A DNA stretch of 64,000 nucleotides from Anaerobutyricum hallii (GTDB taxonomy: Bacteria > Bacillota > Clostridia > Lachnospirales > Lachnospiraceae). Below are positions 15,177 to 40,507 of this stretch, piece by piece. How positions within the stretch are numbered: position 1 is the first letter of the stretch; every line of letters starts with the position of its first letter. The position numbers and the translations under genes were made by a program. The notes beneath the pieces are model-generated. The model made no database searches. It was not told the origin of the DNA and saw nothing but the letters and a program-made list of their open reading frames with translations. The stretch covers positions 1,733,219-1,797,218 of the forward strand of contig NZ_LT907978.1 in the NCBI RefSeq assembly GCF_900209925.1, written 5' to 3'.

Positions 15177-16320
15177 ACCCACAGTACAGGATATTTTTCA
15201 CCGTTTTTATCCGGCATACCTCGATCAGTATTCACCTTCCCCTGTACAGGCAAAGGTTGCACATAACATCATGAACTGTAAAACCGGTGCCTATGGTGCA
15301 AATGTATGTATATGTGAGGATTGTGGTTCCGTACAGATTCATTATAATTCCTGCCGCAACCGCTGCTGTCCCATGTGTCAGGCCGTTCCCAAAGAGATGT
15401 GGATGGACGCACGCAGGGAGGATGTCCTTGATGCTCCCTATTTTCATCTGGTTTTTACTGTTCCCGATCTTTTAAATCCGGTCATTTACAGCAACCAGAA
15501 GCTTCTTTATGATACCTTATACCATGCAGCTTCTGCAACCATCAGCGAACTGGCTGCCGACCGGGAACATCTCGGTGCAAAGGTTGGATACATCTGCATC
15601 TTACATACCTGGGGCTCTGAAATGAATTTTCATCCCCACATTCATACCATTCTGCTCGGTGGCGGTCTGACCTCTGACAATCAATGGAAGGACAAAGGAG
15701 AAAATTTCTTTCTTCCCATTCAAGTCATTTCCAAAGTGTTCCGCGGAAAATATCTGGAGGAGCTGAAAAAACTGTGGGAAGAGGATCAGCTGGTTTTTCA
15801 TGGTACTGCCGAAAAGTTCCGTAACCATTATGAATTCAAGGAACTCCTGGATTCCTGTTATGGTACGGACTGGGTCCCTCATTGTAAAAAGACTTTCAAT
15901 GGTGCCGGGTCAGTAATTAATTACCTTGGCAAGTATACTCACCGCATTGCTGTCAGCAATCACCGTATTATCCGCATGGATGATGATACCGTTACATTCT
16001 CAGTAAAGGATTACCGTAATGAGGGGCAGTGGAAGGAACTGACCATTTCCGGTGTGGAGTTTGTCCGGCGGTTCCTCATGCATGTACCACCAAGGCGTTT
16101 TGTCCGTATCAGGCACTATGGGCTGCTGTGTTCCCGTACTAAGAATCAGAAGCTCACTCTTTGCAGAAATCTCCTTGGATGCAAGAAATATCTTTCAAAG
16201 CTTCGTAACATGGAAATGCCGGAAGTACTGGAACATCTTTACGGCATCAAAGTCTGTGTGTGTAAAGCATGTGGCGGACATCTTGGAAAACCGCAGATGA
16301 AAATACCGCTACGCTGCTAA
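15169..16320 (+). CDS. IS91-family HUH (Y2) transposase, element 1
   Basis: The product is 383 residues. An N-terminal zinc-binding domain (CEDCGS, then CRNRCCPMC) is followed by the HUH metal motif in NFHPHIHTILLGG and the paired catalytic tyrosines in YLGKYTHRIA. These are the hallmarks of IS91-type single-strand rolling-circle transposases. ATG at 15169 overlaps the recombinase stop, implying translational coupling; upstream in-frame codons belong to the recombinase gene. Confidence 0.92.
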   Translation: MDKPTVQDIFHRFYPAYLDQYSPSPVQAKVAHNIMNCKTGAYGANVCICEDCGSVQIHYNSCRNRCCPMCQAVPKEMWMDARREDVLDAPYFHLVFTVPDLLNPVIYSNQKLLYDTLYHAASATISELAADREHLGAKVGYICILHTWGSEMNFHPHIHTILLGGGLTSDNQWKDKGENFFLPIQVISKVFRGKYLEELKKLWEEDQLVFHGTAEKFRNHYEFKELLDSCYGTDWVPHCKKTFNGAGSVINYLGKYTHRIAVSNHRIIRMDDDTVTFSVKDYRNEGQWKELTISGVEFVRRFLMHVPPRRFVRIRHYGLLCSRTKNQKLTLCRNLLGCKKYLSKLRNMEMPEVLEHLYGIKVCVCKACGGHLGKPQMKIPLRC

Positions 16321-16513
16321 AGAGCAGTTTCCATACTTTCAAATGCCTCAGTTTCTGAGGTTTTATTGTCATGCCTATTTTCCGGGAGTCCATGAATTAT
16401 TGTAGCTTTCATACTGAAAATCCTATATACTCATGAATGGGAACAAAGAATTGAAAGTCCATAGTATACAGCTAACAGGACGCTCACTTTGTTCAATTAG
16501 GTCAAATCGCAAA

Positions 16514-16571
16514 TGGTGTAAACGAAGGGGCAGTTCACTGCAATGTCAAAACTGCTTTTTCGTTTACACCA
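16514..16571 (+). other. oriIS-like hairpin of element 1
   Basis: TGGTGTAAACGAA pairs with TTCGTTTACACCA around an inner GGGCAGT/ACTGC stem near the 3' end. The equivalent structure occurs in element 2 (19051-19110) with compensated sequence changes. Confidence 0.6.
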
Positions 16572-16861
16572 TCAGCGATTGTAACCTAAAGAATTGAACA
16601 AAATCGCTGCGCGATGGCCTGCCAAGGCTGTGGCGCAGTTTTCTACTTTTTCTAAAAAAGGCAGTGACAGGATTGTCCCAAGATAGTATTGTTAAAGCAC
16701 GACCTAAAAACAAACTTCAAACACGGGCTTAGTCCCAGCAACTGCCTATGAAAAGAATATCATCTTTAGGCTGCTTTCACAAGCAGTTTTATTTTGCAAA
16801 TGCGCCTCCATGATAGGTAGTTACTGTTATTATTACTACTTTTATTTCATGGAGGTTTTTT

Positions 16862-17713
16862 ATGTACGAATCATATATTAATAAAATCGAAGATGTCGGA
16901 AAGCTTAGAAATCTTAAGCCTAAAACTATTACGCTTTACCAGAAAAATGTTTCTCGTTTTTTGAATTACATCCAAAAAAATCCCGAAGAACTGACTTGCG
17001 AAGATGCCAGAAATTATCTTCTCCATTTACAAGGCAAAGGAGACAAAGCTTCTACACTTAACAATAACAATGGTTCGCTTGTATTTTTTTATAAACGTGT
17101 CTTAGGTAAGCTATGGGATGATAACTTAGTACCTAGAGCCATTAACGATTATGCTGTTCCGGAAGTTCTTTCTTTTCATGATGTTGAGAAACTTTTAAAT
17201 GCAACGGAAGATTTAAAATACAAAGCTATTTTTGCAATCATGTATTCCTCCGGCTTACGCATTTCAGAAGTATTACATTTGCACTATGAAGATATTTCAA
17301 GAAAAAATATGCAGATTTATATACGAGACTCTAAAACTCATACAGCTCGTTATGCACTATTGTCCAAGAGAGCTCTCGATATTCTTACTGAATATTGGTT
17401 CACTTGTGGAAGACCTACCGGAATTCTTTTTCCCAACAAGTGGACTGGTGAATATCTCACAACTTCCGGTCCAAGACTTGTTTTCAAAAAGTCTTTAAAG
17501 ATTGCCGGCCTTCCACACAGTATACGCATGCATTCTCTGCGACACAGCTATGCAACTCATCTTTTGGAAGATGGTGTTGATATAAGATATATTCAAACCT
17601 TGTTAGGACATCGTTCCCCTAAGTCCACCGAAATCTATCTTCATGTTAGCAACAAGGCATTATTAGGTGTTCAGAGCCCTTTTGATAAGAGAGCTGGTGA
17701 AATAAATGGTTAA
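16862..17713 (+). CDS. Tyrosine recombinase of IS91-like element 2
   Basis: The product is 283 residues with the same domain order as the copy at 14328. Catalytic residues are visible in SSGLRISEV (Arg), HSLRHSYATHL (His-x-x-Arg), LLGHRSPKST (His) and EIYLHVS (Tyr). The stop overlaps the transposase ATG. The gene appears intact. Confidence 0.88.
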   Translation: MYESYINKIEDVGKLRNLKPKTITLYQKNVSRFLNYIQKNPEELTCEDARNYLLHLQGKGDKASTLNNNNGSLVFFYKRVLGKLWDDNLVPRAINDYAVPEVLSFHDVEKLLNATEDLKYKAIFAIMYSSGLRISEVLHLHYEDISRKNMQIYIRDSKTHTARYALLSKRALDILTEYWFTCGRPTGILFPNKWTGEYLTTSGPRLVFKKSLKIAGLPHSIRMHSLRHSYATHLLEDGVDIRYIQTLLGHRSPKSTEIYLHVSNKALLGVQSPFDKRAGEING

Positions 17714-18857
17714 TCCTACAGTACAGGATATATTTCACCGGTTTTATCCACTCTATTTAGAGCAGTATTCTCCTTCTCCTCAGCAAGCAAAGGTGGCTCA
17801 TTGTATTATCAATTGCAAAACCGGAGCTTATGGTGCTAACGTACAATTCTGTGAAGACTGTGGACATCCACAGATTCACTATAATTCCTGTCGTAATAGA
17901 TGCTGTCCCATGTGCCAGGCGCTCCCAAAAGAAAAATGGATGGATAAACGTCGTGAAGATGTTCTCGAAGCTCCTTACTTCCATGTGGTATTTACAGTCC
18001 CACAGGAATTAAACTCTTTAATCTACAGCAACCAGCAACTTCTGTATGATGCACTGTATCATTCTGTTTCTGCAACTATCAATGAGTTAACAGCCGATAC
18101 AAAGCATCTCGGTGCAAGGGTGGGATATATTTGTGTGTTACACACCTGGGGATCTGAAATGAATTATCATCCTCATATTCATGTTATCCTTCTTGGCGGT
18201 GGACTGACTGCTAAAAATCAGTGGCGTGATAAAGGTGAAGAATTCTTCCTTCCGGTAAAAATTTTGTCAAAGCTGTTCCGTGGTAAATATATGGATGAGC
18301 TGAAACGCTTGTGGAATGAGAAGAAGCTTCAGTTTCATGGGAGTAGTGAAAAATATCGCAATCATTATGCTTTCAAAGAATTGCTGAATACCTGTTATGA
18401 AAAAGACTGGATTCCCCATTGCAAGAAAACCTTCAATGGGGCACAGTCTGTCATTAACTATCTCGGTAAGTATACACATAGAATTGCCATCAGCAATCAT
18501 CGTATCATTCGCATGGACGAAAATACTGTTACTTACTATGTGAAGGATTATCGTGAAGAAGGTAAATGGAAAGAATATACCATTTCCGGAATCGAATTTA
18601 TCCGCAGATTTCTTATGCATGTGCCGCCAAAGCGCTTCGTAAGAATTAGACACTACGGTTTACTTTGTACCAGAAGCAAGACCAAGCACATTACATTATG
18701 CCGAAACCTGCTTGGCTGCAAACAATATCTTTCAAAACTTAAAGATATGGAAGCACCCCAGATACTTGAAACACTCTATGGTATCAATGTCACTGTTTGT
18801 AAATGTTGTGGCGGACATCTTGGCAAACCACAGCAGAGAATACCTCTACGGATTTAA
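17706..18857 (+). CDS. IS91-family HUH (Y2) transposase, element 2
   Basis: The product is 383 residues, the same length as in element 1. It keeps the zinc-binding cysteines (CEDCGH, CRNRCCPMC), the HUH motif (NYHPHIHVILLGG) and the YLGKYTHRIA tyrosine pair. The ATG overlaps the recombinase stop. All key residues are present, so the element may be active. Confidence 0.92.
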   Translation: MVNPTVQDIFHRFYPLYLEQYSPSPQQAKVAHCIINCKTGAYGANVQFCEDCGHPQIHYNSCRNRCCPMCQALPKEKWMDKRREDVLEAPYFHVVFTVPQELNSLIYSNQQLLYDALYHSVSATINELTADTKHLGARVGYICVLHTWGSEMNYHPHIHVILLGGGLTAKNQWRDKGEEFFLPVKILSKLFRGKYMDELKRLWNEKKLQFHGSSEKYRNHYAFKELLNTCYEKDWIPHCKKTFNGAQSVINYLGKYTHRIAISNHRIIRMDENTVTYYVKDYREEGKWKEYTISGIEFIRRFLMHVPPKRFVRIRHYGLLCTRSKTKHITLCRNLLGCKQYLSKLKDMEAPQILETLYGINVTVCKCCGGHLGKPQQRIPLRI

Positions 18858-19635: not shown

Positions 19636-19749
19636 GAGTTCAGCATAAGCTAAAAACTCTTCTTGTCTTTTTATTCTTCATATCTGATAGCCCTTTATAA
19701 TGAATCAGTTCTCCTAAATATTTTTCTAGTCATTGCAATATAAAATTGC

Positions 19750-19827
19750 TTATACAGTCTCTCCCTTAAGAGTCCTGGTATTCTGGATAATATACAGAGC
19801 GACCAATATGACCATCATTATAGCGCA
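19750..19827 (-). pseudogene. Phosphatidyltransferase 3' remnant
   Basis: The last 26 codons of the gene intact at 5360-5932 remain here. All upstream codons, including the catalytic DG..AR motif, were removed by the deletion joining 19828 to the transporter end. Confidence 0.85.
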
Positions 19828-20867
19828 CTTTCCTTTTTTTTAGACATAAACCAATAAAATATAACACAAAATGCTAAAGCAAACACAACACCAAAAACAT
19901 TTTGAATCACTCTAAGACTAACCGCTCCTTGTAGTCCATAAGTCTCTGCAGCAATGGCTAAAGCACCAAATGTGTTAAATACTGCCTGCCAGCCATATTG
20001 TGCTGAAAATCCTACACCGATTCCACCAAGAATTCCTATATATGCATAGATTGACGAAGGAAGCAGAAAATATAATACTGTAAAACATATAACACCTGCA
20101 ATATTTCCGACAATCCTTTTACGGACTCTGTAGTGCATATCTTCCCTAAACGGCAAAATCGCGGACATGGCCGCAATACTAGCCCACATTGCACGTGGCA
20201 TATTACAAAGTTCTGCAATGCAAAGGACAATCGGTACGCATAAAATCTGACATATCTGCCATTTTGTTCTGGAAGAAGTGATATCAAATTCTTGTATCAG
20301 ATCTTTCAGATTTCTTTTATAAGTTTTGTTTTTATGATTTCGATAAAATACGAAGCAGGTAAGTGCTGCACCTAAAGCCATTCCGACTAATCGCGTCTGA
20401 TAGCTTTTTCCCGTAACATCATAACCATATGGCAGCAGATACCCAAGAACCAATGTAGATTGATTAAACATGAATGGATTATGGCATCCGAACAGAATCA
20501 ACACAGCCAGTGCCGCAATATTTAACAGCATTCCCAATACCGGTGAAAACTGATTTGCTAAATGCGGACATACAGTCATAATTACAAAGAACAAAGCCAA
20601 AAGCATCGTAGATTGTCCGGTGTGGATCCCCAGATCCGCATTCCGAAATACCATAAGGCATAATAAAACTACTACACCCACAATACTATTCTCATTTCCA
20701 AATAAGATACTGAAAATAGTAACAAATAAAAAACAAAATGCCATTGTAACAGCTATCTTCACCAGATATACCCACATATGATATGATTTTTCTTTCACTG
20801 TTTCACTCTTTTTCAACAGATTTTTAGAACCTGCCTGATTTAACTGCAATTCCTGATAAAATGTCAT
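19818..20867 (-). CDS. FUSC-family membrane transporter, copy 2
   Basis: The product is 349 residues and near-identical to 5922-6986. About six substitutions lie in or near membrane helices, including a Leu-to-Pro in GYLLPYGYD and a Met-to-Arg in LPFREDMHY, which could matter for function. The C-terminus ends KKKESAL because translation runs into the deletion junction. The family is proposed to export amphipathic or aromatic acids; its place behind a bile-linked two-component system suggests an efflux role in bile stress. It lies 31 bp after the kinase gene in the same operon. Confidence 0.8.
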   Translation of the reverse strand: MTFYQELQLNQAGSKNLLKKSETVKEKSYHMWVYLVKIAVTMAFCFLFVTIFSILFGNENSIVGVVVLLCLMVFRNADLGIHTGQSTMLLALFFVIMTVCPHLANQFSPVLGMLLNIAALAVLILFGCHNPFMFNQSTLVLGYLLPYGYDVTGKSYQTRLVGMALGAALTCFVFYRNHKNKTYKRNLKDLIQEFDITSSRTKWQICQILCVPIVLCIAELCNMPRAMWASIAAMSAILPFREDMHYRVRKRIVGNIAGVICFTVLYFLLPSSIYAYIGILGGIGVGFSAQYGWQAVFNTFGALAIAAETYGLQGAVSLRVIQNVFGVVFALAFCVIFYWFMSKKKESAL

Positions 20868-20898
20868 GTAATTCCTCCTCTATCTGTTTTTCTTAAAC

Positions 20899-21942
20899 TT
20901 ATATGGCCTCATCTTTCTGTATTGGAAGCTCTACAACAAATCTGCATCCACCATATTCACGGTTTTCTGCTTTGATTGTTCCTCCGGCACTATCTACAAT
21001 CCGTTTTACAAGTGCAAGACCTAGGCCATTTCCTTCTGCTTTATGAGATCCATCTACCTGATAGAACTTGTCAAATATTCTGGATTTTACATCATCCTCT
21101 ATTCCTGGTCCTTCATCTTCCAGAATGAACTTAACAGAATCCTGTTCTTGTTTCAGAAACATCGTAATTATCCCCTTTGAAGGGCTGAACTTAATCGCAT
21201 TATCCAAAAGATTTATCCAGATATGCATAAAAAGTCCTTCATTCCCAGTATATTTAACTTCCTCCAATTCTACCTGAAAACCAATTTCTTTTTCTGTCCA
21301 TTTTGTTTCCAATGAAAGAAATGCCTGGCGGATCTGTTCATCCAGACGATATTCTGTTTTTTTCATTGGTATATTCTGATTCTCTAACTTGGATAACAGC
21401 AAAATATTACCAACCAATCCGGAAAGTCTTTGGGTGTTAAATAAGATTTTTTCTACATATTCCTCTTGATCCGGAGACAGTTCTTCTCCCTGAAGCAGCA
21501 TTGTATATCCTTCAATGGCATTAATCGGGGTCTTAAACTCATGAGAAACATTAGATACAAAATCCATCTGCAGCACCTCTGTTGCACGAAGTTCTTTTGT
21601 CATAACGTTAAAACTTTGATAAGATTCTCCAACTTCTGCTATACGGCTGTTCGTTTCCAAATGCTGTTCAAAATCTCCCCGAGAAACTTCCTTCATTGCT
21701 TTACTAAGCCTAGTAATTGGTTCCAGTAACTTTGCATTAATAAAGGAAGTGATCAGCCCTGCAATCAATGTATTGAAAATCAAAAGCCAGCCAAGCACAG
21801 GTATGCTGCCCGGCAGATTAAAAAAATGATTCAAAAAAGCAAATAATAAAGCAGATATAACTGTTGAAAATACAAGTGCCAGCCAGATTGCACCAGTCAG
21901 ACAGGATCGGATCCGCAATCCTTTTTCTTTCTTTTGTTCCAT
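20899..21942 (-). CDS. Sensor histidine kinase
   Basis: The product is 347 residues. Two N-terminal membrane helices with almost no external loop (LALVFSTVISALLFAFL and LGWLLIFNTLIAGLITSF) are followed by a HAMP-like linker, the H-box FVSNVSHEFKTPINAIEGY with the phospho-acceptor His, and the ATPase N, G1 and G2 boxes. A short extracytoplasmic loop is typical of intramembrane-sensing kinases that respond to envelope-active compounds such as antimicrobial peptides or bile. The start overlaps the response-regulator stop. The truncated homologue in copy 1 has an identical C-terminal half. Confidence 0.92.
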   Translation of the reverse strand: MEQKKEKGLRIRSCLTGAIWLALVFSTVISALLFAFLNHFFNLPGSIPVLGWLLIFNTLIAGLITSFINAKLLEPITRLSKAMKEVSRGDFEQHLETNSRIAEVGESYQSFNVMTKELRATEVLQMDFVSNVSHEFKTPINAIEGYTMLLQGEELSPDQEEYVEKILFNTQRLSGLVGNILLLSKLENQNIPMKKTEYRLDEQIRQAFLSLETKWTEKEIGFQVELEEVKYTGNEGLFMHIWINLLDNAIKFSPSKGIITMFLKQEQDSVKFILEDEGPGIEDDVKSRIFDKFYQVDGSHKAEGNGLGLALVKRIVDSAGGTIKAENREYGGCRFVVELPIQKDEAI

Positions 21943-22613
21943 TATTTTTTCACCACCTTGTATCCAATTCCACGCATTGTTACAATTTCAAAATCCGGGT
22001 TATCTTTAAAACGCTCTCTGATTCTTCCTATATGTACCTCTATCGTATGTGGGTCTGCCTCCGTCTCGTATCCCCATACTTCATCCATCAACTGTTGTTT
22101 TGTAAATGTTCTGCCTGGCGAAGTTGCAAGCTTATATAAAAGCAGGAATTCTTTTTTAGGCAAAACAAGACTTTCCTTATCAGTTGTAACCGTCATTGCA
22201 TCATAATCAAACTCTGTTGAACCGATCACAATTTTGTGTTCATTCAGTATCTGTGCACGGCGAAGCAGTGCTCCGACTCTTAAAACCATTTCATTCACAT
22301 TTACCGGTTTTACCATATAATCGTCACTTCCCGAAAGAAATCCCTGGCGCATATCATCAAAGGAACCTTTCGCAGTGATCATAAGCACTGGTATCTGATA
22401 TCCTGCTGAGCGAAGTTCTGACACCAGTTCATAGCCATCCATAACCGGCATCATAATATCAGAAATGATCAGATCAATATATTCCTTATCCAATACTTCT
22501 AATGCCTGTGCTCCATCCGATGCACTTTTGACTTGATATCCATTCTTCTCAAGCACTTTTTGGAATAGCTGGCTTAATTCTTTATCATCTTCTACAATCA
22601 ATATTTGAAACAC
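21942..22613 (-). CDS. OmpR/PhoB-family response regulator
   Basis: The product is about 223 residues. The receiver domain has the acidic pocket (LIVEDDKEL), the phosphorylated Asp in ISDIMMPVMDGYEL and the Lys in DYMVKPVNV. The winged-helix effector domain includes EFLLLYKLATSPGRTFTKQQ and IEVHIGRIRERF. GTG at 22613 is chosen because AAGGAGG lies just upstream. It overlaps the kinase gene, confirming a two-component pair. Two 11-bp direct repeats upstream of the PLD gene (24132-24111) are the likely binding site. Confidence 0.92.
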   Translation of the reverse strand: MFQILIVEDDKELSQLFQKVLEKNGYQVKSASDGAQALEVLDKEYIDLIISDIMMPVMDGYELVSELRSAGYQIPVLMITAKGSFDDMRQGFLSGSDDYMVKPVNVNEMVLRVGALLRRAQILNEHKIVIGSTEFDYDAMTVTTDKESLVLPKKEFLLLYKLATSPGRTFTKQQLMDEVWGYETEADPHTIEVHIGRIRERFKDNPDFEIVTMRGIGYKVVKK

Positions 22614-22630
22614 GTTTTCCTTCCTCCTTA

Positions 22631-24064
22631 TTAAAACAGATACCTTGCCCATCCAAGCAGATGCTGTACCAAAAATATTTTTCTCTGACGTTTCTTTGTT
22701 AATTCGATTGGCTCTACATGATATGGATCACGATAGGTTCCATCTTCCAATACCTGGCGGGACACTCTTTCATATTCCATCATGCCCTCTTCCAACTGTT
22801 TATTAATATCTTTACTGCGTATTACAAGCATCAGTTCCGTATCCAGATATGCACTTCTCATGTCCATATTAAAGGAACCGATTACAGACAGATCATCGTC
22901 AATCAGAATACTTTTTCCGTGGTATGAATAACCGCCTTCATATTCCCAGATATTAATTCCTGTACTTAAGATTCTATTTCTGTTTTTCGCATAATCGGCA
23001 GACCCAAATGGATTCCCATTATTCGCAACTGAATTTGTCATGATAGAAAAATCTGAAACGTTCTCTGCAATCTCCTCCCATGTATTATACATCATATCAT
23101 TACAGATAATATATGGCGTGTGGATCTTCACACGATTTTTTGCATTTTTCATCAATTCTCCCAACTGATACCACACTACTGGTTCTTTGGAACCTGTGTG
23201 AATAGGATTTGACACTAATGCAATCTTTTCTGTCTCAAAAGTTTCGTCCGTGTAATCAGTATCGCAGATTCTTTCCTTATTCTCTTCAAAATATTTCTGA
23301 TAGCCGTTCTGCAGCTCTAAAACTGCGTTCTTTACAGATTTTCTATTTGCCAGTTTTTTATTGTCATGAAAATAATCACTGTCTTCCTGATTCCATATGG
23401 TTTCAAAATACTCTGACAACTGGTTAACTGAATTTTCTTTCTCAGGTTCATCGCAAACCACTAACACGTCTCTGTCATAGTTCTTATGTCCCGGAAAATC
23501 ACCCAGGAAATAATTGTATGTATTTCTTCCCCCAAGAATATATCTCTTTCCATCTGCAATCAAATATTTATCATGCATTCTACCCATCATTTTCCACGGT
23601 TTCAACGGATTGGCCTTATTATACAGTTTAATTTCAACATTCTCATGGGAAGATAATCCATAGAAATACGGATTTCCTTCCATATCAATCCAGCTCTCCA
23701 TTCCATCTACTAACAGACGAATATGTACACCTCTGTCTGCCGCATCATGCAGTGCTCCTAAAATCAATTTTCCACTTTCATCGGATTGAAATGCAAAAGT
23801 AGAAAGAATAATTTCCTTTTTTGCATTCTTAATCAAACGCACTCTTTGTAAAAGCGCTTCTGGATTCTTTTCTATGATTACTGCCCGTTCTGTATTTTCA
23901 CTGCATTCGTTCCATGACCCATTTTTTGTTTCTTTTTTGGTTGTATTGGACACTTCCGGCTGCTTTTTATATGCAACGCAGATTCCGAGCAATTCATAAA
24001 AAGCCACACATAAAAAAATTGCCAGTATAACAAGAAGGATTTTACATATTTTATGCTTTTTCAT
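22631..24064 (-). CDS. PLD-family phospholipid synthase (ClsC-like)
   Basis: The product is 477 residues. One N-terminal membrane helix (ILLVILAIFLCVAFYELLG) precedes two HKD catalytic motifs, HDKYLIADGKRYILGGRN and HGKSILIDDDLSVIGSFN, which form the phosphatidyl-transfer active site. The closest layout is the ClsC/YmdC type, which makes cardiolipin from phosphatidylglycerol and a second phospholipid. It is the first gene of the second transcription unit of the island, directly ahead of the response regulator (17-bp gap). It should raise anionic lipid content in response to the kinase signal. Confidence 0.85.
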   Translation of the reverse strand: MKKHKICKILLVILAIFLCVAFYELLGICVAYKKQPEVSNTTKKETKNGSWNECSENTERAVIIEKNPEALLQRVRLIKNAKKEIILSTFAFQSDESGKLILGALHDAADRGVHIRLLVDGMESWIDMEGNPYFYGLSSHENVEIKLYNKANPLKPWKMMGRMHDKYLIADGKRYILGGRNTYNYFLGDFPGHKNYDRDVLVVCDEPEKENSVNQLSEYFETIWNQEDSDYFHDNKKLANRKSVKNAVLELQNGYQKYFEENKERICDTDYTDETFETEKIALVSNPIHTGSKEPVVWYQLGELMKNAKNRVKIHTPYIICNDMMYNTWEEIAENVSDFSIMTNSVANNGNPFGSADYAKNRNRILSTGINIWEYEGGYSYHGKSILIDDDLSVIGSFNMDMRSAYLDTELMLVIRSKDINKQLEEGMMEYERVSRQVLEDGTYRDPYHVEPIELTKKRQRKIFLVQHLLGWARYLF

Positions 24065-24095
24065 TGTACATCACCTGATTCCTTTTTATTTCATA

Positions 24096-24132
24096 CTTAT
24101 ACAATACAAAGTCAATCTCAATTTAACCTCAA
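24096..24132 (-). promoter_or_regulatory. Candidate response-regulator box and promoter
   Basis: On the minus strand TTGAGGTTAAA (24132-24122) is followed directly by TTGAGATTGAC (24121-24111), two 11-bp direct repeats in phase. A TATAAG -10 element lies at 24101-24096 and there is no good -35. This is the usual design of a PhoB/OmpR-activated promoter and suggests autoregulation of the PLD-RR-HK-FUSC unit. Confidence 0.6.
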
Positions 24133-24284
24133 CAAAATTTATTTTTCATAAAAAATATGACCGGCTTCTTTTTAATGAAACAGTCATATTTTTATTCTAA
24201 TATATGAAGGAGCTTTTCTTACTCCGTTGTATTAATCACTATCCATGCAAAATCTTCTTTGTACAACAGACTGTTAGATATAGC

Positions 24285-24342
24285 AAAAACGGCCTTTCAA
24301 AAACAGTTAACTTCTAAATCAACTGTTTTTTGAAAGGTCGTT
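24285..24342 (-). terminator. Terminator after clsA-like gene
   Basis: A stem of about 20 bp (24289-24308 with 24321-24342, allowing wobble), with a 12-nt loop, is followed by TTTTT on the minus strand. It separates the bsh-synthetase-cls unit from the PLD-RR-HK-FUSC unit. Confidence 0.8.
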
Positions 24343-24353
24343 TCATCAGATTC

Positions 24354-25913
24354 TTATAGCAATCCAGCAAATAATCTCATAAATAATTGTCCCAGTCGCA
24401 AATATGCACTTCGTCCGGTTTGATATTGGTCTGTCACATCACGACATTCTCCCATCGTTCTTATCAGATCATTTTTTATTTCCACAACTGCCTGACAATC
24501 TGCCATAAAACAGCCGTTTTCAAAATGGTGATATAAACTTCGATAATCCAGATTAATTGTTCCACAAGTTGCCATACAGTCATCTGCCACACTCATTTTT
24601 GCATGGCAGAAACCAGGAGTCCACTCATAAACACGAACACCATGTTTAACTAATCCATGATAAAAAGAACGAGTTATATTATAAATGAATTTTTTATCAG
24701 GGATACCAGGTGTGATAATTCTTACGTCTACCCCTCGCTTAGCAGCCAGACATAACGCATGCGTCATTTCATCTGTTATGATTAGATATGGAGTCATAAA
24801 CCAACAATATTTTTCAGCTTTATTTATCATACTGATATAAACTTCTTCTCCTACTTGCTCATTATCCATAGGGCTGTCTGCATAAGGTTGAACAAACCCA
24901 GTTTGCTGTGCCGCATAATCATAATGGAAAAGATATTTACTAAAATCAGAATCATTAGCATCCTTATCACTTACTGCATTCCACATTTCCAAAAATGTCA
25001 CCGTAAGCGACTGAACAGCATCTCCTTCTAAACGAATACCTGTATCTTTCCACTGTCCATACGGGTGTGTGTAATTAAAATATTCGTTTGCTAGATTATA
25101 TCCACCTGTAAATCCGACTTTTCCATCAATAACTGTTATTTTTCTATGATCACGATTGTTCAAAAACAGATTTAAACCTGGCATAAACGGATTGAATACA
25201 CGGCAATGAATTCCTATTGCTTCCATCTTTTTCACAAAATCTGTGTTAATAAAGCCTATAGAACCCATATCATCGTAGAATACTCTAACTTCCACACCTG
25301 CTTTTACTCGCTCTTCCAGAACATCTTGAATCTTATGCCATGCTTCAGCGTCTTCTATCGCATGATATTCCATAAAGATAAACTTCTGTGCTTTCTCCAA
25401 ATCCTTAAGCTGTGCCTCTAGTCCTTTCACTGCTTTATCAAAATACACAATGTCCGTATTCTGATAGATTGGATACTGCGAATTTCTTTGTATGTAACTT
25501 GCTATATTTCCTGCTTTCGGAATTGTTTCTTTTATTTTGCTCAAACACTCCTGACTGTCCGGAAGCATTGGTAACAATTTGCTATCAATTTCTGCGTATC
25601 GCTCACGCATTTTATGTGTGCCACCATTCAAACCAATCAACAAATACAGGCCTACACCCATAATTGGGAAAATTAGAATTAAGATGACCCAAGGCATTTT
25701 CATAGAGGATGTCTTATTTGATGCGTACAATCCCAAAACCAAGATCCCACTCAAAATCCTTGTAAATAAATTTATGATTTCTGCATATTCATTCAAGCGT
25801 GTTACGATAGTAATAATAAAAATCACTTCCAGAAGAATGCAGATTATGGAAAAACACAGCCGTTTTACCCCATTTTTTGTTTTTGCTTTGCCTTCTAAAG
25901 TATCTTGTTTCAT
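24354..25913 (-). CDS. cls: Cardiolipin synthase (ClsA type)
   Basis: The product is 519 residues, the usual length. Two N-terminal helices (SIICILLEVIFIITIV and WVILILIFPIMGVGLYLLI) are followed by two PLD domains with HRKITVIDGKVGFTGGYN and HAKMSVADDCMATCGTIN as the HKD motifs. The enzyme condenses two phosphatidylglycerol molecules to cardiolipin in the membrane. It follows the alarmone-synthetase-like gene by 35 bp and ends at a terminator. Having two different PLD synthases in one bile operon suggests strong membrane remodelling, which is inferred. Confidence 0.9.
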   Translation of the reverse strand: MKQDTLEGKAKTKNGVKRLCFSIICILLEVIFIITIVTRLNEYAEIINLFTRILSGILVLGLYASNKTSSMKMPWVILILIFPIMGVGLYLLIGLNGGTHKMRERYAEIDSKLLPMLPDSQECLSKIKETIPKAGNIASYIQRNSQYPIYQNTDIVYFDKAVKGLEAQLKDLEKAQKFIFMEYHAIEDAEAWHKIQDVLEERVKAGVEVRVFYDDMGSIGFINTDFVKKMEAIGIHCRVFNPFMPGLNLFLNNRDHRKITVIDGKVGFTGGYNLANEYFNYTHPYGQWKDTGIRLEGDAVQSLTVTFLEMWNAVSDKDANDSDFSKYLFHYDYAAQQTGFVQPYADSPMDNEQVGEEVYISMINKAEKYCWFMTPYLIITDEMTHALCLAAKRGVDVRIITPGIPDKKFIYNITRSFYHGLVKHGVRVYEWTPGFCHAKMSVADDCMATCGTINLDYRSLYHHFENGCFMADCQAVVEIKNDLIRTMGECRDVTDQYQTGRSAYLRLGQLFMRLFAGLL

Positions 25914-25948
25914 ATATATTCCACCTTCCTACTTGCTCAGTTTTCACC

Positions 25949-26629
25949 CTAAATTTCGTGGAACATACCAATTTTGTCTTTTATTCTCTGCATTTCATTA
26001 TCTGCTTCAATGATAGCTCTTGCAGAATGAAGTAATTCTTCACTTATCTCATCATAGCCAGGCATTTCTTCAATTCCTTTTTTATAGCGAAGTTGATGTT
26101 CCAATGTTGCCCAGAAATCCATACCATTGGTTCGAATCTGTAATTCTACACGCATAGGTGTTTTACCCTTAGCAAAAAATACTGGTATTTCAACAATCAT
26201 ATGATAGCTTCGATAACCATTCGATTTTGGATTTTTTATATAATCTTTTATTTCAATAACTTTAATATCATCCTGTTGGGTAATCAAATCTGATATCATA
26301 TAAATATCGTCAATAAACGCACAAACTATTCGAACGCCTGCTACATCATTGAGATATGTCTGTATATTTTCTGTTGTAAATTCATATCCCATCTTCTGTA
26401 GTTTATCGTAAATACTATTGGGCTGCTTAATTCTTGTTTTTATAAAAGAAATAGGATTTCGATTGTTCTCAACTGAAAATTCATCATCCAAAACCTCAAG
26501 TTTAGTTTGTATCTCCCGAATAGCACAACGATACATCATCATTAAATTATAAAATTTTGTAGCATTATTTAAAAACTGTAGTGATTCCGGACTGTTCATC
26601 CTGAGTTTTTTTACTTCATCTTTTGTCAT
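25949..26629 (-). CDS. RelA/SpoT-domain (p)ppGpp synthetase-like protein
   Basis: The product is 226 residues, the size of small alarmone synthetases. Synthetase motifs are visible: RIKQPNSIYDKLQKMG, VAGVRIVCAFIDDIY, NGYRSYHMIVEI and VELQIRTNGMDFWATLEHQL, including the conserved substrate-binding and Glu-x-Gln-Ile-Arg-Thr residues. No hydrolase or regulatory domain is present. It would pyrophosphorylate GDP/GTP from ATP and is encoded 38 bp after bsh, before cls. Coupling an alarmone enzyme to bile hydrolysis and lipid synthesis is unusual and may slow growth during envelope stress. Confidence 0.85.
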   Translation of the reverse strand: MTKDEVKKLRMNSPESLQFLNNATKFYNLMMMYRCAIREIQTKLEVLDDEFSVENNRNPISFIKTRIKQPNSIYDKLQKMGYEFTTENIQTYLNDVAGVRIVCAFIDDIYMISDLITQQDDIKVIEIKDYIKNPKSNGYRSYHMIVEIPVFFAKGKTPMRVELQIRTNGMDFWATLEHQLRYKKGIEEMPGYDEISEELLHSARAIIEADNEMQRIKDKIGMFHEI

Positions 26630-26667
26630 GGAACTTTCCTTTCTACCTCATCCCTGATTTCAAAACA

Positions 26668-27645
26668 TTATTTATTTTGATAGTTGATTCGTTCTCCTTG
26701 AATTACTGGATAACAAATCATTTTATCACTATCCAGATTTTCTACATGCATATCTACTGCACTGATCTGATGGTTTTCATAAGTATTGTAATAATAAATA
26801 CCTTTTGTAACATTACAACACGACGTATACAATGTGATTTCATATTTTCCATCCGCTACTTCGCAACATCCTCGTTGCTGATCCACAGATCCGAGAATGT
26901 GGAAGAATTGGCTAACGCTTTCTTCCTCTGATTCACCTGAAATTGCATTTACCTTTGTAAAAGCTACACGTACAAAGCGTGAGGAAGATGAGAGATCTCC
27001 CGGAAGACCTAATCCTCCCATACCTCTACTATATGCATCAAGAGCCAAATTTTCGCAGAAAGTATTTCTGGGCTGTTTAGGAGATAAATACATATAATTA
27101 TTTAGTTGAAACATCTGCTGTGGAAATGGCGGATTATTCGTAAGCACTCCTACTGGATTATCATAAATATGCAAACCATCTGACATAGATTCTACCGTAA
27201 TTGACTCATTCTCATCAGAAATGATCCAGTGTAATTGTGCTAATGGTAATTGCTCGCTGAAAGGAGTATTAACAATATTAATTCGTTCAAGAAGCTCGCG
27301 AACTTCAACTAAAGAAGAACACTGACTTAAAATCCACGGAATAAATTCAAACTGTGCAATATTTTCCACATCTGGCTTAATCGCGGCGTAAACAGCATTT
27401 CCGACAAAATTCAGTCCTGCCATTGCCACTCCTTTTTCATTCATAGCATCATAATACAAAGGATAATCCTCAGCAACATGAGCCATTCCAATAATTGCAT
27501 AATGATTTTTCATATCGCCAACATGGCGAAAATTAAACGCATAATTACGTGGTGTAATTACTATCTGATCACCATAAGAGAATTCATAATCGAGGGTTCG
27601 TCCAAAGTAAAAATCTTTTGTTTTATAAGTTGCTGCTGTACACAT
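26668..27645 (-). CDS. bsh: Bile salt hydrolase (choloylglycine hydrolase)
   Basis: The product is 325 residues, the family length. It begins MCTAATYK, so Met removal exposes the nucleophile Cys2. Further active-site residues are present: Arg16 and Asp19 (YFGRTLD), Asn in MAGLNFVGNA, Asn in LTNNPPFPQQ and Arg in SSSSRFVRVAF. The enzyme hydrolyses the amide bond of glycine- or taurine-conjugated bile salts in the cytoplasm. TAGGAGG precedes the ATG at 27645. It heads the island. A 50-codon fragment identical to its 5' end lies at 7501-7649. Confidence 0.94.
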   Translation of the reverse strand: MCTAATYKTKDFYFGRTLDYEFSYGDQIVITPRNYAFNFRHVGDMKNHYAIIGMAHVAEDYPLYYDAMNEKGVAMAGLNFVGNAVYAAIKPDVENIAQFEFIPWILSQCSSLVEVRELLERINIVNTPFSEQLPLAQLHWIISDENESITVESMSDGLHIYDNPVGVLTNNPPFPQQMFQLNNYMYLSPKQPRNTFCENLALDAYSRGMGGLGLPGDLSSSSRFVRVAFTKVNAISGESEEESVSQFFHILGSVDQQRGCCEVADGKYEITLYTSCCNVTKGIYYYNTYENHQISAVDMHVENLDSDKMICYPVIQGERINYQNK

Positions 27646-27779
27646 GATCGTTTATCCTCCTAAATAGATTGAAATATGTCAATGAGCTTTTTCTTGAACA
27701 ATATTATATCACAATTCTTTTATTTTGTTCCAACTTCATACATGATCATAACATGTAAACTTTAAACTATTTTCCTAGA

Positions 27780-28178
27780 TTATTTCTCCATCAGTTTTTC
27801 AAACCAGGTATCCATAGCTAGGATGAATTGACCTACGTCTGGCAATTCTTGCAGCATTTCGTTTAGGGTTTTGTGCTTCACATATTTCTGCACATACACC
27901 CAACAGGCAACGCTACTGGCTTCTGATACAATGTCAGCTATGGTTTTGCGCATAAGCTCTTCAAATTCAGCAATTTCTTCTTTTGGGACAACATCATACA
28001 GTGTTGGTGCCTGATGACTTAATTTTACGCCATTTTCATTTGCATCTTTAAGCAGATTCTTAACTTTTTCTCTTGAATCCTCCGGTACTTTCATGTACTC
28101 CCACATAAATGCTATCACATCGGACGGTGTGTCTTTTTTAAGTGGTGGTAACTGAATATAATCATTGTTTTCGCTCAT
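27780..28178 (-). CDS. Hypothetical element protein (about 132 aa)
   Basis: The product is acidic and mostly helical, with SENNDYIQLPPLKKDTPSDV at the N-terminus and a conserved-looking stretch SVACWVYVQKYVKHKTL. No catalytic motif is visible. ATG at 28178 is preferred since GAGGAGG is 8 nt upstream; the earlier ATG at 28184 is too close. It is the last gene of the parB-parA-parB-repA direction and lies just upstream of the BSH island. It probably belongs to the element backbone; the function is unknown. Confidence 0.6.
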   Translation of the reverse strand: MSENNDYIQLPPLKKDTPSDVIAFMWEYMKVPEDSREKVKNLLKDANENGVKLSHQAPTLYDVVPKEEIAEFEELMRKTIADIVSEASSVACWVYVQKYVKHKTLNEMLQELPDVGQFILAMDTWFEKLMEK

Positions 28179-28191
28179 TTTCATGTCCTCC

Positions 28192-28488
28192 TCACGATAT
28201 AATAAAATCAATAATACGTTCTCTTGTCATGTCCAGTACAGTATCTACGAACACTCCTGCAAAAAGGATCAGATACAGAATTACACTCAGCGAAAACAGA
28301 AATGCAACCTGTGCCCAGTCATGGTAACAGTATGCAGTCGCTATAATCAACAAAGTGAATATAAACCCAAGGATCCCTCTGACAACCGCATAAGTCTGTA
28401 CTGTCATCTTTACTGCCAGGCCGATCACAAAAAGGATCAGCCATACCGGCAGTAATAATATCTTCCCAGCAAGTTTTAAAATAAACAT
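28192..28488 (-). CDS. Small integral membrane protein (element backbone)
   Basis: The product is 98 residues with three hydrophobic segments (LLLPVWLILFVIGLAV, ILGFIFTLLIIATAY and FLFSLSVILYLILFAGVF). AGGAGGTG precedes the ATG at 28488. It follows repA by 9 bp in the same direction. Small membrane proteins at this position are typical of Lachnospiraceae conjugative elements. The function is unknown. Confidence 0.65.
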   Translation of the reverse strand: MFILKLAGKILLLPVWLILFVIGLAVKMTVQTYAVVRGILGFIFTLLIIATAYCYHDWAQVAFLFSLSVILYLILFAGVFVDTVLDMTRERIIDFIIS

Positions 28489-28497
28489 GTGCACCTC

Positions 28498-29496
28498 CTA
28501 TCTTGCCAGTCCTGGCATATCATGGTTCACCTCTGCCTGATAATACCCGTTCATCGTTGACGGTGCATTAAACAGGGCTGCTAATAAATATTTCTTGATG
28601 TTCTTCACCTTTGTGGTGTTACCACTCATACAGTGTAAGACATACTCGATATGTGAATAGGTCAGCATCAGAAATTTTTTCTTCACCAGTGATGCCGGAT
28701 ACCAGTTGCTGGCAATCAAGATCTTGTCATTTTTACACATCACAGTCTCTACAATCAGGTTCACGATTTCATCTACCTGCCGCATATCGTCATGATGGGT
28801 TACTTCCAGTGATTCATAATCAATGGTCTCTTTGACAAGGTTTTCATAAGCCTGATAATCCTCAGAGCGGTTATCGCTATCAAATCTTTTCTCATCCACA
28901 GATATGATATGATTAGATTTATTATCATTCATTTCAGTATCACTAAGATTAGTATTATTAGGGTTTGAAATGTAAACTTCTTGAAGTTTGTTTTCGGGAC
29001 TTCTAGAAGTTTGATTTTGGGACTTCATGAAGTTTGAATTGTAAACTTCTGTAGGTTCCTCATTTTCCAAAGAAGTTTGTTTTTTAAACTTCTTTAATTC
29101 CTCTTCAAATTTTTTCTCATCTGTTTTCTCGGGCATAAAGGTTTTCACGTAGATAACGTTCACCTTTCCAAATCCCTGTCTGCGTTTTTCAATCAAACCA
29201 ATTCCTGTTTCGTCATCCAGTTCTCTCATGGATTTGATGGCTTTATTTCTGCCACAGTTCAGTAATTCCATGATATCTTCGATGGAAAAATAGATATATG
29301 CTCTGTTTTTGTCATCAAACCACTGATTCTTGATGGAAAGAGACATTCGATCCAACATCAGTCCATATAAAATTTTAGCATCGCTCGATAAATCTTTAAA
29401 GTAACTGTCTGTAAATAATGCTTTTGGTATGCGGTAGAAGCTGAACTGATCAGCTTCGGTACCGTAAAAATAATTAAATGTCATTTTTTTCTCCAT
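28498..29496 (-). CDS. repA: RepA_N-type replication initiator
   Basis: The product is 332 residues. The N-terminal domain (QFSFYRIPKALFTDSYFKDL and LSSDAKILYGLMLDRMSLS) is the classic RepA_N/RepA fold with a winged helix (SIEDIMELLNCGRNKAIKSM). A low-complexity, Asn-rich linker and a C-terminal domain follow. Family members start theta replication of Firmicute plasmids and some conjugative elements. The origin usually lies inside the gene; here palindromic repeats at 28974-29094 fill the linker-coding part. AAAGGAGG precedes the ATG. Confidence 0.88.
   Translation of the reverse strand: MEKKMTFNYFYGTEADQFSFYRIPKALFTDSYFKDLSSDAKILYGLMLDRMSLSIKNQWFDDKNRAYIYFSIEDIMELLNCGRNKAIKSMRELDDETGIGLIEKRRQGFGKVNVIYVKTFMPEKTDEKKFEEELKKFKKQTSLENEEPTEVYNSNFMKSQNQTSRSPENKLQEVYISNPNNTNLSDTEMNDNKSNHIISVDEKRFDSDNRSEDYQAYENLVKETIDYESLEVTHHDDMRQVDEIVNLIVETVMCKNDKILIASNWYPASLVKKKFLMLTYSHIEYVLHCMSGNTTKVKNIKKYLLAALFNAPSTMNGYYQAEVNHDMPGLAR
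28974..29094. repeat. Iteron-like palindromes inside repA (candidate origin)
   Basis: AAACTTCTTGAAGTTT (28974), ACTTCTAGAAGTTT (28999) and ACTTCATGAAGTTT (29022) are near-identical palindromes. Half-sites follow at 29043, then AGAAGTTT...AAACTTCT at about 29070-29093. They lie between the two domain-coding parts of repA, where RepA_N origins are normally found. A related pair lies just upstream of repA near 29520-29550. Confidence 0.75.
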
Positions 29497-29574: not shown

Positions 29575-30486
29575 TTAATAGGACTGTTCCTGCATCCATT
29601 TTTCTAATAATGATTCAATCACCTGCTCCATATCTTTGGCTGTATAATCATCCGGAAAGTACTTTGTCAGTTTCTTTTCTGAGAAAGTGAGAGACCTGGA
29701 TACTTTCTTTGCCATCACACAGTTATTGAAAATTGATAACATCTGGATCTGATTGATTGGTCCATCATTCAGCTGATTTCTGAGTGCTGCAATCTGTTTT
29801 GGCTTGATAAATCCGGTGTCGCTGATATATTCATAAATCCATTCCTGTACTTCCTTATCGATGTAGGAAATATCTACGGCAACCGTGAACTGAAGCTTTT
29901 TGTTATCTACCAGATCAAGAAGTTCTGGTATTAACTCTGTCAGTCGGATGTAACGCTGAATCTGCTTAGAACTTTCTCCAACTTGATCTGCAAGTATATT
30001 TCTCGATATTACTGGTTTCAACTTCTGGTCATTTTGACCAGAAGTTATATCTGTCCTGCTTCCTTGTCTTTTCATTGCCTCAAGTTTCATCTTATAAGCA
30101 AAAGCTTTCTCACTTGGCAACAGTTCCTCTCGCTGAATGTTAGCGTCCACCATGGCCACAATGGCATCATCATCCGATAATTCTCTTACGATTGCCGGAA
30201 TAGTCGTAAGTCCTGCAAGCTGTGCTGCATGCATTCTTCTATGACCGGATACCATTTCATATTCTTCATTATCATCCATTCGAAGCAGTACCGGTGTCAG
30301 TACTCCATTGATCCTTACACTTTCAACCAGATCCTGCATCTTTTCATCATCCAGCACCTTGAACGGATGATTTTTAAACGGATGGATCTTACTGATTTCT
30401 ATCTCCATTGCAGATTCTTCATTTACCACACCCAGCAGTTCATCAATGCTTGCCAGTTTAATCTTTTCGCCACTTCTATTTTTCAT
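29575..30486 (-). CDS. parB: ParB/RepB-family partition protein 2
   Basis: The product is 303 residues. The ParB N-terminal nuclease-like domain shows SGHRRMHAAQLAG and the arginine-patch region VDANIQREEL; a central helix-turn-helix (NILADQVGESSKQIQRYIRL) follows. It would bind centromere repeats and load onto DNA as a CTP-dependent clamp. It overlaps the parA stop by 11 bp, indicating coupling. A second ParB-like gene precedes parA, an unusual but recurrent layout in large elements. Confidence 0.88.
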   Translation of the reverse strand: MKNRSGEKIKLASIDELLGVVNEESAMEIEISKIHPFKNHPFKVLDDEKMQDLVESVRINGVLTPVLLRMDDNEEYEMVSGHRRMHAAQLAGLTTIPAIVRELSDDDAIVAMVDANIQREELLPSEKAFAYKMKLEAMKRQGSRTDITSGQNDQKLKPVISRNILADQVGESSKQIQRYIRLTELIPELLDLVDNKKLQFTVAVDISYIDKEVQEWIYEYISDTGFIKPKQIAALRNQLNDGPINQIQMLSIFNNCVMAKKVSRSLTFSEKKLTKYFPDDYTAKDMEQVIESLLEKWMQEQSY

Positions 30487-31261
30487 TTTTCAAAACCTCC
30501 TGTGTTAAGTTCTTATATGCTTCGGCAACTTTTCCTTTCGGGCAGTGCATGTAGATGCTTTTTCCCTCTGCACTGGTCTCAGCAGCTTTTACAGACATCG
30601 GGATCACATTTTCAAATACCTCGATCTGACTTCCGTAGGTTGTATGTACTCTCGATGCAATATCCCTTGCGTAATTGGTTCTGAAATCTACCATGGTCAG
30701 GAGAATGCCCTCAATCGCCAGTTTCCGGTTCAGTCTTTTCTTTACTGTAAGAATGGTCTTGATCAGCTGCTGAAGTCCTTTCACCGGCAGATATGCGGCT
30801 TGCACAGGTATCAACACAGAATCGGAAGAGACCAGTGCATTGATTGTTATCATACCAAGGCTCGGCATACAGTCGATCAGGATATAATCGTATCGGCATC
30901 GTATCGCATCGATATATTCTTTCATGATCATTTCTCTGCTCATAACATTTCCCATCGTTACTTCCAGTGCGGAAAGCTCAATATTTGCCGGGAGAAAATC
31001 TACATTTTCCTGGTGATGTAAAATCCCATCTTCCAGAGAGATTTCTTCTTCGTTGATGACATCCATCATGATCGTTGCCAATGTGATGCGAAGATCATCC
31101 GGTTCCTCATATCCAAGACTTGCGGTTAAACTTCCCTGTGGATCCGCGTCGATCAGCAACACTTTCTTACCTTCTCTTGCCAGTCCAATGCCTACATTTA
31201 CGGTTGTGGTGGTCTTTCCGACGCCACCTTTCTGGTTTACTACGGATATAACTTTACACAT
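30476..31261 (-). CDS. parA: ParA-family partition ATPase
   Basis: The product is about 261 residues with the deviant Walker A motif NQKGGVGKTTTTVN, Walker A' (VLLIDADPQGSLT) and Walker B (YILIDCMPSLGMITINAL). The protein forms ATP-dependent gradients on the nucleoid that position plasmid or element copies. ATG at 31261 is supported by AAAGGAGGAAG; the longer frame to 31303 lacks an SD. It lies between two ParB-like genes. Confidence 0.92.
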   Translation of the reverse strand: MCKVISVVNQKGGVGKTTTTVNVGIGLAREGKKVLLIDADPQGSLTASLGYEEPDDLRITLATIMMDVINEEEISLEDGILHHQENVDFLPANIELSALEVTMGNVMSREMIMKEYIDAIRCRYDYILIDCMPSLGMITINALVSSDSVLIPVQAAYLPVKGLQQLIKTILTVKKRLNRKLAIEGILLTMVDFRTNYARDIASRVHTTYGSQIEVFENVIPMSVKAAETSAEGKSIYMHCPKGKVAEAYKNLTQEVLKNEK

Positions 31262-31275
31262 GATTTCTTCCTCCT

Positions 31276-32145: not shown

Positions 32146-32172
32146 CTCGACTCCTTTCCTCCAGGATTCAGG

Positions 32173-32228: not shown

Positions 32229-32240
32229 GCTGTTTGACCA

Positions 32241-32546: not shown

Positions 32547-32567
32547 ATTTTCGAACGCTTTGAAGCC

Positions 32568-40472: not shown

Positions 40473-40478
40473 AAGTCA

Positions 40479-40500: not shown

Positions 40501-40507
40501 ATCCACC

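Follow-up and report, generated by a model that had tools for sequence, protein, structure and literature searches.

Two-component control of membrane lipid composition is known from the LiaFSR-type systems of Enterococcus. Bile salt hydrolase (BSH) genes have been recorded as cargo of mobile elements of the gut, with 18 examples and extensive transfer within phyla in the accessible portion of the ImmeDB report (PMC6907783), and the available parts of two papers on Bacteroides fragilis (PMC10790697, PMC12132519) describe two cardiolipin synthases, ClsA and ClsB, as fitness factors in bile, with no link there to a BSH, an alarmone synthetase or a two-component system. Here we analyse a 64,000-nt stretch of Anaerobutyricum hallii DNA (hereafter the window; G000:C1:1733219-1797218, where G000 is the source genome, a single contig of 3.52 Mb), which carries a gene island encoding a BSH, a small alarmone synthetase, two enzymes of the phospholipase D (PLD) type, a two-component system, a FUSC membrane protein and a PgsA-like phosphatidyltransferase. 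The reading that we favour, with a probability slightly above one half (about 0.52), is that of a transferable membrane-stress island, carried as cargo of an element resembling an integrative and conjugative element (ICE) at tRNA-Arg(CCT), and made up of a self-regulated PLD unit plus a BSH/synthetase/ClsA unit, for which bile acids and similar amphiphiles would be the selecting agents.

The element, to which the Tn1549/CTn-type family of Firmicutes ICEs would be the closest known, shares with that family a tyrosine integrase, a MobA-type relaxase, VirD4, PrgI, a VirB6-like protein, TopB, NlpC/P60 and ArdC, whereas its membrane/bile cargo and its attachment at tRNA-Arg(CCT) set it apart. The likeness to LiaFSR would lie in two-component control of membrane lipids, which the genes suggest for the island; unlike in LiaFSR, no LiaF or LiaX is found among the genes here, the regulator is of the OmpR type, and the lipid enzymes are encoded in linkage with the sensor and move together with it. 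Like the ImmeDB elements, the island carries a BSH as mobile cargo; the terms cardiolipin, two-component, histidine kinase, fusaric and GTP pyrophosphokinase do not occur in the main text of that report, and overlap with a single element is possible. The genes of the same cluster are annotated one at a time, the cluster itself passing without comment, in Lachnospira eligens ATCC 27750 (NC_012780.1, EUBELI_RS13365-13415), in the order GTP pyrophosphokinase, cls, citrate synthase, MarR, PLD, response regulator, histidine kinase, FUSC, CDP-alcohol phosphatidyltransferase, bsh and ftsH. The L. eligens BSH is the ~71% identical BSH′ at the other end of the cluster, the module BSH being present there only as a 3′ fragment. 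No description of the exact gene combination was found in the open-access full-text literature, among the matches listed. As far as checked, the parts are thus known families and the vehicle is of a known kind, and what is new is the combination, its layout as two units with a candidate operator, and how widely it has recently been transferred.

The island is present in the window in two copies. Copy 2 spans positions 27653 to 19709, entirely on the minus strand, with seven genes, beginning with BSH and continuing with a RelA/SpoT-domain synthetase, a ClsA-type synthase, PLD, an OmpR-type regulator, a HAMP/HisKA kinase and FUSC_2:

26668-27645, minus strand: predicted bile salt hydrolase (choloylglycine hydrolase) with Cys2 nucleophile; NF038245, 505 bits against a cut-off of 350
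25949-26629, minus strand: predicted small alarmone synthetase, YwaC (RelP/SAS2)-like; PF04607
24354-25913, minus strand: predicted ClsA-type cardiolipin synthase; TIGR04265, 310 bits against a cut-off of 290; HKD motifs at 256 and 437
24287-24343, minus strand: terminator-like hairpin 3′ of clsA, from an RNA fold of 24270-24352
24147-24242, minus strand: scar of a lost citrate synthase and MarR pair, which 8 of 37 loci still have at this site
24117-24132, minus strand: candidate response-regulator box TTGAGGTTAAATTGAG, a direct repeat with an 11-bp period, upstream of PLD
22631-24064, minus strand: PLD-superfamily protein, ClsC/YmdC-like; PF13091 twice, HKD motifs at 164 and 382
21942-22652, minus strand: OmpR-family response regulator; PF00072 and PF00486
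20899-21942, minus strand: histidine kinase with two hydrophobic helices and HAMP; PF00672, PF00512 and PF02518
19818-20867, minus strand: FUSC_2 membrane protein; PF13515, 61 bits; C-terminus altered by the pgsA deletion
19709-19828, minus strand: 3′ end of the unit that remains after the pgsA deletion; 120 nt, 99% identical to 5319-5438

Copy 1, at 7657 to 5319, is a remnant in which the BSH end is fused to the C-terminal half of the kinase gene, followed by FUSC and PgsA:

7498-7657, minus strand: first 160 bp of the BSH end, joined to the kinase remnant; 100% identical to 27494-27653
7018-7485, minus strand: C-terminal half of the kinase, with no HisKA match
5922-6986, minus strand: FUSC_2 protein, open reading frame (ORF) intact
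5360-5932, minus strand: PgsA-like CDP-alcohol phosphatidyltransferase; PF01066, 116 bits

The ends of the copies correspond (27653 to 7657 and 19709 to 5319), at an identity of 99-100% among the repeats listed. Most of pgsA has gone from copy 2 through a deletion of ~0.5 kb, and the deletion joints of both copies share few bases, a pattern of illegitimate deletions. An earlier note on this DNA, made from the letters alone, had listed under 19709-27653 eight functions in one direction, the PgsA-like one from copy 1, and both the list and the coordinates were borne out, the former when the PgsA-like gene of copy 1 is added to copy 2 and the latter as the bounds of the repeated unit. A discrete transposon with these bounds was rejected: they are those of a local duplication, and other loci break at many different points.

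The BSH is predicted to be a Cys2 Ntn-hydrolase matched by the BSH-specific profile. Its closest chain in the PDB is 4wl3 (E 6e-138), it has Cys2, Arg16, Asp19 and the NN and SRF positions, presumably the catalytic ones, and the penicillin V amidase profile NF058572 gives 238.8, under its cut-off of 600. In the synthetase PF04607 was the sole Pfam match and no hydrolase domain was found. The best PDB chains are 6ewz (173 bits) and 6fgj (172), both of which we take to be RelP proteins, and YwaC (6fgk, 159), against 122-123 bits for YjbM chains; the best NCBIfam match is the YjbM equivalog NF053588, at 182 bits under a cut-off of 320, and the protein appears closer to YwaC/RelP (SAS2) than to YjbM. 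The profile score and two HKD motifs likewise assign the third gene to a predicted ClsA. A second clsA of G000, 90-91% identical (L079:10628-13553; G000:1492613-1495566), is split by two ORFs that together look like a transposase of the IS3 type, and a FUSC gene of 49% identity lies ~3 kb from it.

The earlier note had called the PLD protein a ClsC-type synthase. A PLD protein with two HKD motifs is indeed present; the ClsC identity did not hold up, because the protein scores below the cardiolipin-synthase cut-offs (TIGR04265, 109.9 against 290; ClsB, 79.7 against 281), so that the name denotes resemblance only. No ClsC-named model was among the 8 NCBIfam families listed for it, and a relative of 23.6% identity lies on a Salmonella plasmid, in a match that also covers ymdB. 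The kinase with almost no external loop could be confirmed from sequence and hydropathy: the loop measures ~10 aa, at about residues 39-48, and with two transmembrane helices this layout is that expected of an intramembrane-sensing histidine kinase. The PgsA-like assignment in copy 1 was likewise confirmed by its PF01066 match. FUSC has no relative in the PDB by sequence at E up to 1.

The set is probably organised as two units and not as one operon, because a strong hairpin follows clsA, and the candidate box precedes PLD but not BSH. The hairpin folds at -27.6 kcal/mol, against a mean of -10.97 for shuffled sequences (z -5.49), and has a T-rich tail; a consensus terminator scan did not list it. 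A consensus promoter scan was set aside, as it equalled its shuffles (36 found against a mean of 36.6). Between clsA and PLD there is a gap of ~290 nt, with short gaps inside each unit, and 95 bp of it are the remnant left by loss of the citrate synthase and MarR pair, the scar starting at the MarR stop codon. A 1.9-kb insertion sequence had been considered between clsA and PLD and was dropped, since the DNA encodes the citrate synthase and the MarR-family protein instead. The break points differ between the loci compared, which suggests that the pair has been lost more than once.

An 11-bp period is typical of OmpR-family regulator sites. With up to two mismatches allowed, the box was found upstream of PLD in 33 of 36 non-redundant loci (L090 left out), the loci without it (L056, L058 and L066) being distant relatives at 66%, 66% and 41%. 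In L077/L078 and L061, about 11-17% diverged, the differing base of the box falls in the spacer. The box upstream of PLD is retained where citrate synthase and MarR have been lost, and a second box lies upstream of citrate synthase in 7/7 examined loci that hold this gene. The pattern TTGAG-N6-TTGAG has a single occurrence in the window, and the full box has one exact match in its own genome; at up to two mismatches that genome gave 2 matches, against 4 for the reversed control. As no genome-wide regulon is seen for the box, the regulator may act only locally.

Counting the source genome each time, the core was found in 12/299 genomes of the family, 2/24 of the genus and 2/391 across the class. 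Queried with the PLD protein, the named genomes yielded 29 loci, of which 25 match it at 94-99% amino-acid identity, and the topology of a tree of the 4.3-kb core from 33 loci does not follow host taxonomy. The core is 99.3-99.5% identical between Faecalibacterium (Oscillospiraceae) and Brotaphodocola (Lachnospiraceae), for the two copies compared, and 99.0% identical between Faecalibacillus (Erysipelotrichia) and Hominisplanchenecus. Identities of up to 99.5% between families and 99.0% between classes therefore indicate recent transfer.

The vehicle in the source genome is delimited by an 83-bp direct repeat, of which the left copy is within the window:

32527-32609 (G000:1765745-1765827), minus strand: left attachment repeat, the 3′ part of tRNA-Arg(CCT) and the following bases, 83 bp

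The repeat is identical at the right end (G000:1673737-1673819), in the same orientation and ~92 kb apart. Between the two lie a tyrosine integrase (PF00589; L095:9326-10771, ~3.5 kb from the right repeat), a relaxase (PF03432), a VirD4 coupling protein (PF02534/PF12696), TopB, NlpC/P60, PrgI, a TrbL_2/VirB6-like protein and ArdC, whereby PrgI and TrbL_2 were also matched by profile. A VirB4-like ORF is weak, with no match at 1e-5 and DUF87 at 24.2 against 23.2. In L043, L046 and L048 the same left-end DNA starts directly at an intact tRNA-Arg(CCT). Flanking direct repeats, an integrase inside one end, a relaxase, a coupling protein and channel parts are what one would expect of an ICE, and the repeats and conjugation genes put the cargo in a terminal position of an ICE-like element, next to the RepA_N/ParA/ParB-like genes. 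That the set is mobile, as the earlier note held, is strongly supported by this setting, with its 83-bp repeats, relaxase and VirD4, and by the near-identical copies across families and classes. The attachment pattern is present in 9/12 other core-bearing genomes searched and absent in 3; it lies within 5 kb of the cargo in G263, G118, G027 and G102, at ~12 kb in G138, and elsewhere in four. A phage or plasmid as the general vehicle was considered and found no support, megablast having returned two plasmid records and one phage record (2% of the query); both plasmid records are L. eligens replicons of ~627-629 kb, typed as non-mobilizable. The native tRNA-Arg(CCT) of G000 (L094; G000:3500153) has behind it DNA similar to the element's left end, and a second element may sit there.

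Gene retention was compared over 37 non-redundant loci (29 from the named genomes, 6 others, L. eligens and the window), some of which stop at contig ends, so that 'absent' in these counts partly means not seen. The regulator and FUSC are intact in 33 loci each, PLD in 32 (a biased count, since the 29 named loci were themselves retrieved with PLD and not with the other genes), the kinase in 31, ClsA in 26, PgsA in 23 (190-aa form, window included), the synthetase in 17, BSH in 11 and BSH′ in 5; regulator, kinase and FUSC are intact together in 31/37. BSH′ is 71% identical to BSH and sits at the opposite end of the core. Among the other partners, citrate synthase and MarR occur in 8/37 loci, a MATE gene after PgsA in 4/37, and FtsH after BSH′ in L055, L065 and L090, while L067:626-5420 and L070:487-5281 carry a P-type cation ATPase, an AI-2E family transporter and a DegV-family protein after PgsA (by hidden Markov model in L067 only), and in each of these two genomes BSH′ and the core are ~8.5 kb apart. 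For seven genes dN/dS is 0.018-0.10 against the 88%-identical L078, pointing to purifying selection; BSH, which has no L078 comparison because it is broken there, gave 0.21 over 55 close pairs. The complete bile-defence programme of the earlier note was therefore overstated: with BSH intact in 11/37 loci, or 16/37 with BSH′, and with variable partners, BSH is by these counts a frequent but dispensable partner of a core that is predicted to remodel lipids and may regulate itself.

In the island as we read it, the constant part would be this self-regulated unit, in which a kinase whose layout suggests intramembrane sensing and a regulator of the OmpR type, the latter binding the TTGAG-N6-TTGAG box upstream of the PLD unit, would turn on the ClsC-like PLD, the FUSC membrane protein and the PgsA-like enzyme, and the unit would thereby raise anionic lipid and move amphipathic acids out. 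In the second unit, with its own upstream region, BSH would hydrolyse conjugated bile salts, the YwaC-like synthetase would slow growth and ClsA would make cardiolipin. Gene identities and order, the conserved box, the hairpin between the units, the ICE-like setting, the wide transfer and the purifying selection are observations; the signal, the binding of the regulator, the substrates and the protective effect are inferred. Bile acids and similar membrane-active amphiphiles of the gut would be the most likely selecting agents. The part played by cardiolipin synthases in the bile fitness of B. fragilis speaks for a link with bile. In 7/12 core-bearing genomes a BSH or BSH′ is found no more than 10 kb from the core (the BSH of G138 has a frame break), against a rough chance expectation of ~0.1 of 12, taking 28 kb of ~3.3 Mb and ~1.1 BSH genes per genome. 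BSH occurs in 92/299 genomes of the family, and chance proximity to the core should therefore be rare, though the copies are non-independent through transfer. Bile is plausibly the likeliest selecting agent, with general envelope stress close behind. BSH and BSH′ are two lineages at opposite ends of the core; their independent recruitment was considered, but the tree, which has them as possible sisters with weak support (83/93), does not establish it.

Several observations weigh against this account. BSH is intact in so few of the loci; several transferred copies, in Faecalibacterium, Faecalibacillus and Hominisplanchenecus, have no BSH in the DNA seen; and the regions upstream of BSH that were compared lack the candidate box. 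None of 26 chromosomal BSH loci (67-77% identity, with flanks of up to ~9 kb, shorter at contig ends) has a Cls, PLD or FUSC neighbour, which in part realises the ground on which the earlier note would have given up its view, namely homologous BSHs elsewhere lacking these neighbours. Their neighbours include a small alarmone synthetase twice, PgsA once, citrate synthase once, MATE five times and FtsH never, compared with three MATE, one ClsA, one FtsH and none of the other families in 20 control stretches; guilt by association for chromosomal BSHs was thus dropped, with no convincing enrichment. Among 16 BSH loci viewed with ~1.5-kb flanks, the majority of them from those genomes, PgsA was a neighbour once. 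Concerning the vehicle, an intact 5′ half of the tRNA is missing at the left repeat, and the element may therefore be displaced or immobile now; ORFs reading as transposases lie near the integrase, and a reverse-transcriptase ORF adjoins the VirB4-like ORF. The repeats of G138 and G102 bracket the cargo, but no relaxase or VirD4 match lies between them; given this and the variable attachment pattern, the ICE described here is one setting and not the only one.

These points bear on the rival explanations to different degrees. A general cell-envelope stress island, responding to lipopeptides, cationic peptides, long-chain fatty acids or solvents, with BSH as an incidental neighbour, is a serious competitor that we nevertheless hold to be doubtful. 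Kinases of the LiaS/BceS type sense membrane perturbation; here the kinase would do the same, and PLD, PgsA and FUSC would restore the membrane. Such an island would accommodate the joint retention of regulator, kinase and FUSC in 31/37 loci against 11 for BSH, the variants that add MATE, P-type ATPase or DegV, and a synthetase closest to YwaC-type proteins. Two small synthetases of Staphylococcus aureus have been tied to cell-envelope stress tolerance, according to a title cited in PMC5794853, and the title of PMC13123819 announces two-component control of enterococcal membrane remodelling under daptomycin; both would fit. It is at odds with the proximity of BSH or BSH′, two lineages, to the core in 7/12 genomes where chance would give ~0.1 of 12, albeit for copies that are not independent.

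That the genes have no functional unity, and are chance cargo in a recombination-prone end of a mobile element with each gene retained separately, would explain why gene content varies by locus with many deletions and fusions, and why the BSH and PLD units each have an upstream region of their own and are divided by a hairpin. We consider this unlikely in view of a gene order that is fixed across classes where the genes are present, the common retention of regulator, kinase and FUSC, the low dN/dS of the seven genes tested, and the fact that ClsA, PLD and PgsA are all phospholipid enzymes by family. The proposal of the earlier note, one operon that responds to bile acids and in which a single promoter serves all eight genes, is scarcely credible and was set aside: the common direction and the short gaps inside each unit would suit it, but it is contradicted by the ~290-nt gap with its strong hairpin, by a box seen only upstream of PLD and citrate synthase and not of BSH, and by the loss of most of pgsA from copy 2. 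More tentatively, and with the odds somewhat against it, PLD, regulator, kinase, FUSC and PgsA could form a distinct mobile fitness unit of human-gut Bacillota with its own operator box, which would have crossed genera, families and classes recently, at 97-99% identity, with interchangeable bile/membrane partners (two BSH lineages, YwaC-like synthetase, ClsA, citrate synthase/MarR, MATE, P-type ATPase/DegV and FtsH). If so, commensals would have in it a transferable determinant of resistance to bile and detergents, comparable to a resistance cassette with its own regulator.

If the membrane-stress island does protect against bile acids, bile tolerance of commensal Lachnospiraceae and Faecalibacterium would be in part a horizontally acquired trait of the strain and not of the species, and this could account for the way strains differ in colonisation and in bile-acid chemistry. 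Unrelated hosts with near-identical copies, some with BSH and some without, lend themselves to comparison, and through the conserved candidate operator the regulon is open to a direct test.

The cargo is flanked in the window by the following features:

27780-28494, minus strand: two small ORFs between BSH and RepA, with no Pfam match
28498-29496, minus strand: RepA_N/DUF6017 replication initiator, by Pfam
29575-32241, minus strand: ParB-like, ParA-like and ParB-like genes; ParA by NF041546, 113 bits under a cut-off of 180, the ParB-like pair by reading
4104-5182, plus strand: HTH gene (4104-4574) and M78 peptidase gene (4658-5182), the cargo flank on the far side

The adjoining replication/partition module of the earlier note thus stands for RepA_N and DUF6017, whereas ParA falls below its cut-off and the ParB-like pair comes from reading only. 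The two small ORFs are retained beside BSH in L041, L043 and L059, and also in L060, where one of them is broken; the M78 part of the other flank is common to L052 (to 4782) and L060 (to 4663). The copies of the island are separated by ~12 kb, which hold two units of IS91-type transposase and tyrosine integrase. Each of these ~2.5-kb units, within 14328-18857, has a tyrosine integrase overlapping an IS91-type Y2 transposase ORF, the two being ~72-76% alike among the repeats listed, and they adjoin a TwoAYGGAY RNA at 13831-13992 (77.9 bits).

Elsewhere in the ICE-like element of G000, three adjacent genes (L096:4742-8208) match the PADLOC candidate defence models PDC-M33A/B/C (738, 324 and 274 bits), with a methyltransferase fragment and weak matches to type II restriction enzymes nearby, so that the element also carries a candidate anti-phage system, and L098:191-5452 encodes a 1753-aa surface protein with a thioester domain and ten SpaA stretches. 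A separate link of BSH with a synthetase is possible at L085:6608-11350, where a chromosomal BSH (74%) has a MATE gene on one side and, one gene away on the other, an alarmone synthetase of 37% identity. In the window, Mu/Tn7-like transposition genes lie at 36449-42607 between two repeats that are 99% identical over the 300 nt listed, including at 38174-40472 a transposase with rve and Mu-transpos_C and a TniB-like AAA ATPase; the one repeat examined by hidden Markov model carries an IS3-type transposase. Outside the ICE-like element, positions 50729-58983 of the minus strand hold Type I CRISPR-Cas genes for Cas1, Cas4, Cas7 and a Cas3-like C-terminal helicase.

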